Positions 33,383-38,756 of a stretch of DNA of 64,000 nt are shown one piece after another; within the stretch, counting starts at the first letter, position 1, and each line of letters starts with the position of its first letter. Origin of the DNA: Thermoplasmatota archaeon (lineage in GTDB: Archaea; Thermoplasmatota; Thermoplasmata; UBA10834); contig JAHIRF010000012.1 in NCBI GenBank assembly GCA_018818785.1, positions 1 to 64,000 of the forward strand, in the 5' to 3' direction. Made by a program: the position numbers and the translations under genes. A model generated the notes under the pieces. The model was not told where the DNA came from. It did no database searches and saw nothing but the letters and a program-made list of their open reading frames with translations.

Positions 33383-33868
33383 TCATTCTTTCGGAGAGAT
33401 CGCGGCCATTGCGAGCGCGACCGCGTCCTCGGGCGTTTCGGCTTCGACCAGATGGAGTATCGTCTTGTGATATGCCCGTTCAAGCTTCCATGTCCCGAGA
33501 CCTATCACAGTCTTGCCGAGATTCAGTGCATGACCGATTTCCGAGAGCGTGCCGAACTCCCCTCCGACAGCAATCACCACATCCGCCGTCTTCACGAGCA
33601 TGACGTTCCTGCCGACCCCCATCCCTGTGACGATCGGTATCTGGACATATGGATTCGCATCGTTCCGGTCATCAGAGGGTATTATGCCGATCGTGAGTCC
33701 TCCTTCAGCCCTCGCGCCTTTGCACACGGCCTCCATCACGCCTCCCAATCCTCCGCAGACCACAGCTGCGCCGTGCTTCGCGATTTCGGACCCTAGCTTC
33801 TCAGCCTGACGGTATGTCTCCTTGTCTGGCTTGTTCGCCCCTATGACCCCTATGATCTTGAACGCCAT
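33383..33868 (-). CDS. SLOG/LOG-like Rossmann protein (TIGR00725 type)
   Basis: 161 aa. KIIGVIGANKPD at the start, AAVVCGGLGGVMEAVCKGARAE and VVIAVGGEFGTLSEIGHAL (the GGxGT-E nucleotide-binding motif) define the TIGR00725 group of the LOG/lysine-decarboxylase-like fold. Related LOG proteins release nucleotides from phosphoribosyl conjugates; the substrate here is unknown. ATG at 33868. Confidence 0.88.
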   Translation of the reverse strand: MAFKIIGVIGANKPDKETYRQAEKLGSEIAKHGAAVVCGGLGGVMEAVCKGARAEGGLTIGIIPSDDRNDANPYVQIPIVTGMGVGRNVMLVKTADVVIAVGGEFGTLSEIGHALNLGKTVIGLGTWKLERAYHKTILHLVEAETPEDAVALAMAAISPKE

Positions 33869-33982
33869 GTCATGACCTCATGGCGCTCTTCTGACTTAAA
33901 TTCAATCTCGGACACTGGCCATCCATCGACATGTTTATTAGGTAACCGACCCGATATTGACGCAAGTATTGGAGGCTCCCCC

Positions 33983-34513
33983 ATGCCAGATATTAGAGAT
34001 AGGATTGAGGAAGACAGGGGTATTCTGAAGAAGATCCAGACATATGTTCCAGGATTCAGAGGATACAGGCGCCGAGAGGATCTTCGGGACGCAGACCGCA
34101 TGCTCAGAGCTCAATTGACTCAGAAGCTCAGCATCGAGAGGAGAGGTCTTGAGGAGTGCAGGGGTCTGCTCGTGCAGAGCTACGGCTCGAAGGAGATGGA
34201 GCTGATCGGCGGCCTCATTAATCAGTTCAAGAAGATCGAAGGCCTGGTCCTTCATGCTGAGACGGGCTATTCCGGATTCGTGGCAGATATCCAGATCAAG
34301 GAGGAGCAGCTAGACAAGCTGTACGAGTACGATGCGGGCATGCTCGACCATCTCACATCGATCACTGTGAGCATAGAGTCACTCAAGAACTCCCTGATGG
34401 CAGCTGATGAAGCCACGAGCCACCGGGATATCATGAACATCAGGGCCAGGATAACAGATTTCGAGGACAAGTTCAATCGCAGGATGCGCGTGATAGAGGG
34501 CACGGAGGTGTGA
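33983..34513 (+). CDS. Coiled-coil protein of the SPFH/zinc-ribbon island
   Basis: 176 aa, mainly alpha-helical with heptad-like patterns from residue 40 on. The N-terminal segment IQTYVPGFRGYRRREDLRDA is distinctive and resembles a conserved motif in small bacterial proteins encoded near SPFH genes (recollection, unverified). No membrane helix. ATG at 33983 fits a TATA-like TTTATTAGG at 33931-33939. It lies 4 nt before the SPFH gene, so an operon is likely. Perhaps a PspA-like scaffold or regulator of the SPFH protein (inference). Confidence 0.7.
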   Translation: MPDIRDRIEEDRGILKKIQTYVPGFRGYRRREDLRDADRMLRAQLTQKLSIERRGLEECRGLLVQSYGSKEMELIGGLINQFKKIEGLVLHAETGYSGFVADIQIKEEQLDKLYEYDAGMLDHLTSITVSIESLKNSLMAADEATSHRDIMNIRARITDFEDKFNRRMRVIEGTEV

Positions 34514-34517
34514 GATC

Positions 34518-35639
34518 ATGAGTATCATAGGAGCGGCAACGTTCAAGTGGGAAGATGTGGACAAGCGTACGAACATAATGTACCGCATGCCACGAAACAT
34601 AAAATTCAACGACAACATAGTCGTCCGCGAAGATGAGGTCGCTGTGTTCTACAGGGACGGAAAGGCGCTGGCGTACATAGATAGACCAGACAGATACGCC
34701 CTTTCCTCGCTCAACGCGCCTATCGTCGGGGCCATCGTGAAATTCATTTCGGGCGTCCAGCAACAGGCTGAAGTCATATACCTCCAGAAGCGGGCGATCG
34801 ATGGCAAGTTCGGCAGCAAGCAGCCATACCAGTTCAGAGACAAGGAGTTCGGCATGGTCAACCTGCGCGTGTTCGGGGAGTTCCGGTACAAGGTCGGATC
34901 ACCAGCCAACTTCGTTAATGAGTTCGTCGGTACGCTCAACTATTCCGCGAGCGCGGAGATAGAGGAACGAATCAAAGAACAGATGGTCATACTGATCTAC
35001 GATTCCATAGGCGACATGAAGAACGAGGGTATGGGGGTCGCGGACATGGCGAGCAACCTGACCAGCATCGAGCAGGTCGTGTTGTCAAGGACGAAGGATC
35101 ATTTCGACCTCTATGGTATCTCGATCGACAAGATATCCGGACTGTACATCTCTTTGCCAGAAGAAGTTCAGAAAGCGGTTGATACGCGTGCTTCGATGCA
35201 GATACTGGGCACGAACTATGTCCAATACCAATCTGGACAGGCCATGCGTGAGGCCGCCTCGAATCCTGCAGGCGGTGCGGCTGCAGCAGGCGTTGGAGTC
35301 GGGGCTGGGATCGGCATGGGATGGACCATGATGGATTCGATGCGACAGCCATCAGCTGTGCCCGGGCAGCCGGCTCAGCCACAGTCGGTGCCTGCGACGA
35401 TCGCATGTCCGAAATGTGGCACTCAGAACCCGTCTACGGGCAAATTCTGCTCATCGTGTGGCGCGAAGCTTGGGGCTGCCACGGTCGCATGCCCGAAATG
35501 CAAGGCTGAGGTTCAAGAGACCTCCAAGTTCTGTCCGGAGTGCGGGGGCCAGATCGGAGGGAGCAAGAAATGTGCGTCCTGCGGTGCAGAAGTGCCTTTG
35601 AATGTGAAGTTCTGTCCAGAATGCGGAAAAGCCCCCTGA
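34518..35639 (+). CDS. SPFH-domain protein with C-terminal zinc ribbons (YdjI-like)
   Basis: 373 aa. Residues about 25-230 form an SPFH/band-7-like domain of the virion-core-protein type (EVAVFYRDGKALAYI at the start, YGISIDKISGLYISLPEEV near the end). A Gly/Ala-rich linker follows. The last 75 residues hold three zinc ribbons (CPKCGTQNPSTGKFCSSCG, CPKCKAEVQETSKFCPECG, CASCGAEVPLNVKFCPECG). Bacillus YdjI has the same architecture and is recruited to the membrane by zinc-ribbon partners. It is followed here by three zinc-ribbon genes, two of them with membrane helices, which fits that model. Confidence 0.9.
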   Translation: MSIIGAATFKWEDVDKRTNIMYRMPRNIKFNDNIVVREDEVAVFYRDGKALAYIDRPDRYALSSLNAPIVGAIVKFISGVQQQAEVIYLQKRAIDGKFGSKQPYQFRDKEFGMVNLRVFGEFRYKVGSPANFVNEFVGTLNYSASAEIEERIKEQMVILIYDSIGDMKNEGMGVADMASNLTSIEQVVLSRTKDHFDLYGISIDKISGLYISLPEEVQKAVDTRASMQILGTNYVQYQSGQAMREAASNPAGGAAAAGVGVGAGIGMGWTMMDSMRQPSAVPGQPAQPQSVPATIACPKCGTQNPSTGKFCSSCGAKLGAATVACPKCKAEVQETSKFCPECGGQIGGSKKCASCGAEVPLNVKFCPECGKAP

Positions 35640-35683
35640 ATCGAACAGCATGATTGAGGTCTAGATGAGTCTGGGGTGGGAAA

Positions 35684-36427
35684 TTGGCATCAATTAAGTG
35701 TCCGAAGTGCGCAGCGCCCGTGACGTTCGACGCTGAATCCAAGTTCGTGAAATGTTCGTACTGTACCTCGCAGATATACATCGACAGAAGCGGAGCGGGG
35801 TTCTACTACGCCCTTCCATATGCAGTCAACGAAACGAGCGCTGTCGGCGTGTTCAGACGCTGGGCGGCCGGGTCGACGAGGGCCAAGGACCTCGATAAGA
35901 ATGCTCAGATCGCAGGTGTGAAGAAGCAGTATTTCCCGGTCTACATGTTCAAGCGAGATATCAATGGCAAGGAGCAGGTCCTGGTCGAACCCGCTGGCTC
36001 GACCACACTGCCCGGCCTGCACAGCCTGAAGGTGCCGGCGGGGGATCTCAAGATATATGACGATTCTTTCGATGTCGGCGGCGCCGAGTTGATCAAACCC
36101 GATATCGAGATGCTATCCTACATGGACACTCTCCCCGGAAAGCCCAAGGAACAGGCTCTGGTGTTCTTTCCGATCTGGAAGCTCGATTACGTGTTCAATC
36201 AGAAGCGGTACGAAGTCATCATCGATGGCTCTGCTGGCGAAGTCTTCTCGGCAGAGTTCCCGACACGGAGCTCGAACGCATACGTCGCTGTCGCTGGGAT
36301 CGGATTCGTCGCATTCGTTGTCGAAGGTCTCCTCGCAGCGGTCTCTCTTCCCCTTGCACTGGGATTGATGGGGTTGACGATTGTAGGCGTCTTCGCGAGC
36401 GCTTTGTTCGTGGCAAGGAGGATGTGA
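35684..36427 (+). CDS. Zinc-ribbon membrane protein
   Basis: 247 aa. An N-terminal rubredoxin-like ribbon (CPKCA and CSYCT, about residues 6-30), a soluble beta-rich middle and two closely spaced C-terminal membrane helices (about 198-245). Start TTG at 35684 with GGTGGGAAA upstream. The conserved FPIWKLDYVF segment resembles the YLPFWRA and YYPVWVVRY segments in the next two genes, so the three share a domain. Likely a membrane partner of the SPFH protein. Confidence 0.8.
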   Translation: MASIKCPKCAAPVTFDAESKFVKCSYCTSQIYIDRSGAGFYYALPYAVNETSAVGVFRRWAAGSTRAKDLDKNAQIAGVKKQYFPVYMFKRDINGKEQVLVEPAGSTTLPGLHSLKVPAGDLKIYDDSFDVGGAELIKPDIEMLSYMDTLPGKPKEQALVFFPIWKLDYVFNQKRYEVIIDGSAGEVFSAEFPTRSSNAYVAVAGIGFVAFVVEGLLAAVSLPLALGLMGLTIVGVFASALFVARRM

Positions 36428-36431
36428 TGAT

Positions 36432-37433
36432 ATGGCTGGCATATCAGTAGGATTGAACTGCCCCGCATGTGGTGGAGCCATATCCGTCGAAGAGGGAGAG
36501 AGCACCGTCATATGCCAATACTGCGATTCCACGCTCTATATCGAGGGGGACAAGGGCGTCTCAACGATCGCCTTCAGCAACAGGGTTGCGAAGGAGACCG
36601 CCATGAAGGCGACTCAGACCTGGTGGACCCGAGGCTTCAAGGCGAGGGATCTCAAGCACACTGGGAAAGTCACTGAAATATATCCGATATATCTGCCGTT
36701 CTGGAGGGCATTGACCCGGGTGGCTGGCTGGGTCTGTGGATATGAGGAGCGGAGACACACCGATCAGAAGGGGAATGTCCGAGTGGAGAAGATCCCTAAG
36801 GAAGTCATGGTGCTCCAGGATTACACCTTCTCTGAGATCGCATGCGACCCTGGCGATCTAGGCATCCGGACCCTGAAGAATTTCTCGGGTGAAACAGGGT
36901 TCGCGGATTTCGATATGATCCCTACATTCGAAGCAACTACTAGCAGGGACGACGCCGTCGTTCGCGCGAAGAACGACGCCCTGGCAAGAGCGAAGGCGGG
37001 TGTGCGAGTACCTCATGTGACCTTCCAGAAGCTGCATGTCCTTCCGAAGCGCCTGTCGATGGTCTACTATCCCGTGTGGGTCGTCAGATACAACTACAGG
37101 AATAGGATGTACATGTCCACGGTCGACGGCGTCACGGGCCAGATGATGTCCGGCCGCGCCCCTGGCGATCCCCTGTTCCAGAGCCTCGCGGTCACAGCAG
37201 GGACATCCTTGGGCGGCATAATCGCCGCGCTCGGGATCATCTTCTCGGGCGAGAGCGTCGAGATAGCTGCAGGCGGGCTCGCCGTCGGCATCGGTCTGCT
37301 CTATGTCACATACAGATTCTTCCGGCACGGATCAGAGATAGTAGAAGGTGAGTTCAAAGAGAAGAAGGCCTCATCGAAGCAGACCCTTCGGGATATCCAG
37401 AACATCGCCAAACAGCTACAGGGGAGGTACTGA
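36432..37433 (+). CDS. Zinc-ribbon membrane protein
   Basis: 333 aa. N-terminal zinc ribbon (CPACG, CQYCD), a soluble region with two copies of a Y-hydrophobic-P-x-W segment (YLPFWRALTRV, YYPVWVVRYNY), two membrane helices (about residues 255-300) and a charged C-terminal tail. It begins 4 nt after the preceding stop and is followed at once by another member. No catalytic residues are seen. Probably part of one membrane complex with the SPFH protein. Confidence 0.8.
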   Translation: MAGISVGLNCPACGGAISVEEGESTVICQYCDSTLYIEGDKGVSTIAFSNRVAKETAMKATQTWWTRGFKARDLKHTGKVTEIYPIYLPFWRALTRVAGWVCGYEERRHTDQKGNVRVEKIPKEVMVLQDYTFSEIACDPGDLGIRTLKNFSGETGFADFDMIPTFEATTSRDDAVVRAKNDALARAKAGVRVPHVTFQKLHVLPKRLSMVYYPVWVVRYNYRNRMYMSTVDGVTGQMMSGRAPGDPLFQSLAVTAGTSLGGIIAALGIIFSGESVEIAAGGLAVGIGLLYVTYRFFRHGSEIVEGEFKEKKASSKQTLRDIQNIAKQLQGRY

Positions 37434-37434
37434 G

Positions 37435-38022
37435 ATGAATGTGATCCAAGTGACATGTCCGTCCTGCAACACACCGATATACTCCAAGGTACGGGACCGA
37501 CTGTTCTACTGCAACCGATGCAACACTATTCATGTCCGGGACGGAGGGATCGAGAAACTGGATTTCGAGGTCGCCGAGTTCAATCCATCCGCTCAGGGAG
37601 AGAAGGTGTACCTGCCGTTCTGGAGGATGTATTGCTCGTTCACCATACATTCGAAGAGCGTCGAGGGTGGACACATATCCAGACTCGCATCCTGGCTTCG
37701 CGGAGGAGGGGATAGCGGCAGCCTCTTCATATATGTGCCCGCGACGGAGATGGACACCGCCACGTTCAAGTATTATTCGACTTTGCTCACCGCGAACCCG
37801 CCGAGATACAACACGAGGTTGAACTTCGGGGATGTTCGACGCATGCCTGCGGTAATGAAAAGAAATGAGGCAGTTGAGTTGGCCGATTTCGTGATCGTCA
37901 CAATGGAAGCTGAGAAGCCCGGCATACTCCAGAGGCTGGATTACACGTTGACCGTGAACGATTCCAAGGTCGTCTACCTGCCGTTCGTACTCTCACAATC
38001 AGGCATGGCGCCCGCATTCTGA
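37435..38022 (+). CDS. Soluble zinc-ribbon protein of the SPFH island
   Basis: 195 aa. N-terminal ribbon (CPSCN, CNRCN), then a domain with YLPFWRMYCSF like its neighbours, but no membrane helix. ATG at 37435 comes one base after the TGA of the previous gene, so the two are coupled. A soluble paralogue of the two membrane proteins upstream. Convergent with the Nudix gene. Confidence 0.75.
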   Translation: MNVIQVTCPSCNTPIYSKVRDRLFYCNRCNTIHVRDGGIEKLDFEVAEFNPSAQGEKVYLPFWRMYCSFTIHSKSVEGGHISRLASWLRGGGDSGSLFIYVPATEMDTATFKYYSTLLTANPPRYNTRLNFGDVRRMPAVMKRNEAVELADFVIVTMEAEKPGILQRLDYTLTVNDSKVVYLPFVLSQSGMAPAF

Positions 38023-38027
38023 GCGGT

Positions 38028-38756
38028 TCAATCACGGAGTCTCCGCGGACTTCCTGCGAGGAATCCCTTGATGATATCAACGTGATCGAAGGCCATCTCG
38101 GGTAGATGGTCGACATCGATCCACTCAGCCGCGCTAGCGTCGTCCCCGGCCCTGACGGTCCCCTTCTTCGCACGAAGATGGTATACCGCTGTCACGAAAT
38201 GCCCACGAGGATCCCTGTCCGGTGAGGAATAGATGCCGACAAGGTCCACGATCTCCGTCACGAGGCCGGTCTCCTCCCGCACTTCACGGACAACGCAATC
38301 TTCAAGTCGCTCCCCGTGATTCAAGAAACCGCCAGGGAGCGCGTGGTATCCCATGAATGGGTCGTTCTTTCGCTTGATCAGCAGGATCTTGCCATTCCGG
38401 ATCACAATCCCGTCTGCGGTCACGGACGGTTTCTTCCAATTGTTCTCGAACAGGCTTCTCAAGTGGGCGGACCTGTTCTCGTATTCTCTGAGTACCGCCT
38501 CCCCGAGTTTGCTGAGTTCCGTCTCGCCCCCATGAACGCCTCCACGGGTCGAAGTCACGACATCCCCTCCGGCGTTCTCGGATATCCTGTGTATTATGCC
38601 CCATGCATGACGATACGACATCCCCATCTCCTTGGCGGCTTTCGAGAGTGATTTAGTATCCTTGATGATTCTCAGGAGCCTGGCCCGTCCGTCGCTGATT
38701 ATGAACCTGTCATCACGAACCAGCCAGAACTTCAATCTAAGGTCGTACACGATCAT
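38028..38756 (-). CDS. ModE-type HTH fused to a Nudix hydrolase
   Basis: 242 aa. Residues about 1-105 form a ModE-like winged helix-turn-helix (SLSKAAKEMGMSYRHAWGII, the usual LysR/ModE recognition helix pattern). Residues about 110-240 form a Nudix domain with the complete box GFLNHGERLEDCVVREVREETG. Nudix domains hydrolyse nucleoside diphosphates such as ADP-ribose or act as sensors for them. The fusion suggests a regulator that senses a nucleotide-sugar-like metabolite, as in NrtR but with the domain order reversed (inference). It starts 14 nt after the urocanase stop on the same strand. Start at 38756. Confidence 0.88.
   Translation of the reverse strand: MIVYDLRLKFWLVRDDRFIISDGRARLLRIIKDTKSLSKAAKEMGMSYRHAWGIIHRISENAGGDVVTSTRGGVHGGETELSKLGEAVLREYENRSAHLRSLFENNWKKPSVTADGIVIRNGKILLIKRKNDPFMGYHALPGGFLNHGERLEDCVVREVREETGLVTEIVDLVGIYSSPDRDPRGHFVTAVYHLRAKKGTVRAGDDASAAEWIDVDHLPEMAFDHVDIIKGFLAGSPRRLRD

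Follow-up and report, generated by a model that had tools for sequence, protein, structure and literature searches.

The window, i.e., the entire 64,000-nucleotide stretch of DNA analyzed here, comes from a methanogen-related archaeon and contains five tightly packed genes, termed A to E, all on the plus strand. Gene A (33983..34513) encodes a 176-aa protein predicted to be all-helical (AF2), recognized by a match to NCBIfam NF047596 and by its adjacency to B; gene B (34518..35639) encodes an SPFH (Band_7_1) protein with three zinc ribbons (Pfam). Gene C (35684..36427) has an N-terminal zinc ribbon, a YdjG-type beta domain, and a C-terminal transmembrane (TM) hairpin (hhalign to D, hydropathy), while gene D (36432..37433) combines a zinc ribbon, a YdjG-type alpha-beta domain, a TM hairpin, and a C-terminal helix (AF2, HMM). 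Gene E (37435..38022) codes for a soluble zinc-ribbon paralogue of C and D with no TM segment (hhalign, HMM). The gaps between consecutive genes are 4, 44, 4, and 1 nt, and the coordinates agree with a preliminary description of this DNA as a five-gene operon with gaps of ~1–45 nt. Relatives of C begin with ATG at the residue that aligns with its TTG start, which backs this start; the conserved start of E is 37435, and a longer listed open reading frame begins within D.

A putative promoter and ribosome-binding site (33934..33975, plus strand) is found upstream of A, consisting of a TATA-like box (TTTATTA, 33934-33940), an initiator-like region (CGATATTG, 33952-33959), and a Shine-Dalgarno sequence (GGAGG, 33971-33975). 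Twelve genomes of the family have the three elements 5′ of A with similar spacing, consistent with a single promoter for all five genes. The operon is flanked on both sides by minus-strand genes: a divergent gene (33383-33868) for a SLOG cluster4 protein (LDcluster4, 156.7 bits) and a convergent gene (38028-38756) encoding an N-terminal helix-turn-helix (HTH_1, below cut-off) followed by a NUDIX domain.

The product of gene B matches PF13421 (SPFH Band_7_1) with 119.9 bits against a gathering cut-off of 24. Its SPFH domain spans residues 23-228, and three zinc ribbons follow towards the C-terminus (residues about 297-371, nt 35406-35630; Pfam DZR and Zn_Ribbon_1 x3), as the preliminary description had it. 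Hydropathy at a threshold of 1.6 finds no TM segment in B, and YdjI of Bacillus likewise has none (PMC8581546). With its PF13421 domain, a zinc ribbon at the C-terminus, and no TM segment, B is a member of the YdjI-type SPFH family. PF13421 also finds matches in B. subtilis, L. lactis, S. acidocaldarius, and M. acetivorans. In a tree of B, the Methanoperedens sequences form their own clade, whose position is unsure owing to long bacterial and f6 branches.

Profile comparisons group C, D, and E as homologues within one superfamily, bearing out the notion of triplicated zinc-ribbon partners. All three have an N-terminal zinc ribbon and Y-P-W motifs. Hydropathy places TM hairpins in C (nt about 36275-36418, C-terminal) and D (nt about 37170-37328) and, unlike in C and D, no TM segment in E, so that two zinc-ribbon membrane proteins and a soluble one are present, as first described. 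In hhalign, C and D match at 99.5% over 191 columns and D and E at 95.8% (E=7e-9), with similarity between C and E detected over the ribbon only; the D HMM also matches E orthologues at about 1e-9 to 1e-28. The AF2 model of D (pLDDT 81) consists of the ribbon, two alpha-beta units with one Y-P-W strand each, the TM hairpin, and a terminal helix. Comparing this model with the PDB gave no useful fold match and did not confirm the NTF2-like/YpeB relation stated in PMC11237479. The Y-x-P-[FVI]-W segment, originally said to be common to all three proteins, is carried twice by D (YLPFW, YYPVW) and once in strict form by E (YLPFW; the second copy reads YLPFV), but C of the window has only relaxed forms (YFPVY, FFPIW); the strict motif is present in 28/40 C orthologues.

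A bacterial locus ties this superfamily to a known operon type. On an Enterococcus gallinarum plasmid (L076), genes for SPFH, ZnR/TM, and TPM proteins lie in a row (Band_7_1, Zn_Ribbon_TF, and TPM in Pfam), corresponding to what has been described in Bacillus as ydjI-G-H (PMC11237479; PMC9239133). The ZnR/TM protein is matched by the D HMM at 1e-38 and by the C HMM at 1e-31, and its alignment with the family covers the ribbon and beta domain, including the Y-P-W and NGQTG regions. C, D, and E are thus homologues of the ZnR/TM protein that accompanies SPFH in a bacterial YdjI-type operon and therefore of YdjG type, with bacterial YdjG represented in this comparison by the Enterococcus plasmid homologue rather than by B. 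subtilis YdjG itself.

Gene A is of a different kind. The AF2 model has five helices (pLDDT 86), hydropathy finds no hydrophobic hairpin of the kind seen in C and D, and Pfam gives no match. NF047596 (LIMLP_15305, Leptospira) matches A remotely over nearly its full length (E=1e-11), as it does 41/42 members of the A family; its score of 45 bits falls far short of the cut-off of 210, which makes A a remote relative and no equivalog. No bacterial relatives of A were found on the plasmids searched or in 14 control genomes searched with NF047596, and in the literature searched LIMLP_15305 turned up in a single paper, where it stands in a table. Conserved residues in A are P23, G24, G27, Y28, R35, R42, G95, Y96, Y114, D117, and R167. 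No PDB entry matches the model at E<=0.001, and PspA, Vipp1, and ESCRT-III are absent from its 50 best PDB matches. By sequence, A, B, and D match solved structures at the level of ribbons or coiled coils only. The idea that A is a short PspA was ruled out by sequence, profile (hhalign probability 0.4%), and predicted fold, the hhalign set comprising six PspA (from Methanoperedens and a Methanosarcinales genome) and two PspA-like proteins from Thermoplasmatota; the first gene thus differs from that of Bacillus, as had been proposed. Solo A paralogues without an SPFH neighbor occur at L040 4679-6376, L064 5940-7680, and L072 1563-2072, and those of L040 and L064 come after the same pair of uncharacterized genes.

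The A–B pair is widely co-inherited. Of 284 Thermoplasmatota genomes with a completeness of 90% or more, 161 have A and 218 have PF13421 (178 above cut-off). B lies directly downstream of A on the same strand in 139/150 of the A matches listed for Thermoplasmatota; the other 11 lie close to contig ends, are second copies or fragments, or belong to genomes with SPFH outside the matches listed. Similarly, B follows A in 79/80 named contigs (the exception ends inside A), and the two are adjacent in 38/41 gene copies of the first set. The complete A-B-C-D-E order is kept in 32/80 named contigs, including those of Ca. Methanoperedens (L132, L138, L139), which belongs to another phylum. C, D, and E of Methanoperedens each score best with their own orthologues, so the triplication either predates that split or moved as a unit. 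Operon order and reading frames are thus kept in dozens of genomes, far beyond chance. Gene order in relatives had been named beforehand, next to predicted interaction, as a point on which the preliminary description could fail; because both the A–B adjacency and the five-gene order are conserved, the objection that there is no conserved neighborhood falls away. The near-constant adjacency of A to B speaks for a direct functional link between the two, and A is best read, from sequence and gene order, as a core component not described before and a near-obligate partner of B.

Outside the full five-gene arrangement, the membrane component varies. In some lineages, A–B is followed by just one D-type gene or has a D-type gene upstream of A; in others, a small multi-TM protein is encoded directly upstream of A–B (e.g., L053 6461-6826, L055 6549-6920, L050 6503-6862, and L059 751-1080, with no D recognized). 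Since this protein stands 5′ of A in several lineages without a C/D-type gene, a membrane component is usually kept, and some A–B loci have neither a recognized D nor a recognized small TM gene (e.g., L062). The L059 protein weakly matches the membrane domain of NfeD (E=0.008), a known stomatin partner. Family f6 has a divergent layout of the same system, in the order 512-517 aa zinc-ribbon protein, small multi-TM protein, A, and B (minus strand: L069 5319-8917, L071 6040-9681, L073 6098-9651; plus strand: L070 5078-8672); its ribbon protein has no Pfam match, and a YLIPFW motif is seen in L073. Our literature search found no paper joining SPFH with Methanomassiliicoccales.

PspA is a membrane-repair protein. 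The window's genome has no PF04012 (PspA) match, and PspA scores above cut-off in just 2/284 Thermoplasmatota genomes, both of which also have A and B. In Methanoperedens genomes, PspA is present and located elsewhere than the five-gene operon, which means that A does not everywhere act as a plain substitute; strict replacement of PspA by A is not supported as a rule by these genomes and the two from Thermoplasmatota, all of which hold PspA together with A/B. In Pfam searches, neither PspA nor TPM (YdjH) is encoded in the five-gene island. Elsewhere in the window's genome, a TPM-domain protein is encoded at G000:C11:82377-82742.

Taken together, we consider it probable that the operon specifies an SPFH scaffold of the YdjI/YdjG type that is anchored in the membrane, with A as near-obligate partner and a likely role in maintaining or surveying the cell membrane. 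YdjI of B. subtilis depends on YdjG and YdjH to get to the membrane and interacts with PspA; when YdjG or YdjH is missing, the membrane foci of both YdjI and PspA disappear, and two-hybrid data connect the proteins (PMC8581546). C and D, as homologues of YdjG-type proteins, should anchor B. B, having no TM segment, would oligomerize on the cytoplasmic face of the membrane, recruited by the cytosolic zinc-ribbon and Y-P-W domains of C and D, themselves held in the membrane by their TM hairpins. E, as a soluble paralogue, may modulate the contact between C/D and B, and A would be a small helical partner of B in the place that PspA takes in the Bacillus operon. We infer these physical contacts, together with a role in membrane stress. 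Its operon position and the absence of PspA only hint at a PspA-like task for A. The bolder version, in which A founds an undescribed family doing the job of PspA in PspA-less archaea, acting from the cytosol as a helical effector that the SPFH/YdjG-type scaffold delivers to damaged membrane, seems to us improbable.

Other readings of the operon deserve weighing. The scaffold could serve as a chaperone or quality-control platform for membrane proteins being assembled or turned over, and not for repair of the lipid membrane, with A as substrate adaptor. Band-7, TPM, and similar PspA partners have been proposed as chaperones for membrane-linked complexes (PMC11237479), and with PspA in only 2/284 Thermoplasmatota genomes, a PspA-type repair step may be absent; however, the operon contains no protease or AAA+ ATPase gene, and A has no PDB fold match to a known adaptor. 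We regard this reading as rather unlikely. Far less plausible is a set of zinc-ribbon proteins acting as membrane-tethered regulators of transcription or translation, docked on the SPFH protein: the weak matches to the ribbons of TFIIB, RNA polymerase subunit P, and S27e that would speak for it are all below cut-offs and confined to the ribbon, whereas the beta domain with Y-P-W motifs defines the family equally, and in a bacterium the linkage is to SPFH and TPM. An anti-viral defense island has nothing in its favor beyond the unannotated multi-gene operon; with no meaningful PADLOC match and a presence that is broad within families rather than patchy, we give it hardly any credence.

Returning to the YdjI/YdjG-type scaffold, what is new is a variant form of this SPFH system with an undescribed core partner, A. 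With PspA almost missing from Thermoplasmatota, a conserved operon that joins the parts of a bacterial scaffold to a different, uncharacterized partner offers a concrete candidate for the upkeep of their membranes. The SPFH–YdjG pairing is common to bacteria and archaea, and the partner differs.

Several known systems resemble the island in part. The Meth_adaptin ESCRT loci of Methanobacteriales (PMC11188069) likewise belong to an archaeal membrane system and have an SPFH protein that bears a coiled coil and a zinc ribbon, but they contain Vps4/ESCRT-III and adaptin-like proteins, of which the island has none. The LIMLP_15305 family of Leptospira resembles A alone, as a near-full-length relative from which A is separated by its score far below the curated cut-off. 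The E. gallinarum operon shares an SPFH gene adjoining a YdjG-type gene, with a ZnR/TM protein homologous to C/D, and differs in having TPM and lacking both A and the paralogues. The preliminary description had seen here an archaeal counterpart of Bacillus ydjFGHI; this stands for the homology of B (YdjI-type) and of C, D, and E (YdjG-type, at best E = 1e-38), and not for PspA and TPM, which the island lacks. It had also credited Bacillus with zinc-ribbon membrane proteins in the plural, which needs correcting, as only YdjG is described with zinc ribbons and YdjH is a TPM-domain protein (PMC11237479). Compared with pspA-ydjGHI of B. subtilis, the archaeal operon begins with a gene unrelated to PspA, has no TPM/YdjH gene, encodes three YdjG-type paralogues instead of one, and has an SPFH protein with three zinc ribbons; the two share a YdjI-type SPFH protein with no TM segment and a C-terminal zinc ribbon, a YdjG-type zinc-ribbon membrane protein, and a compact operon of four to five genes.
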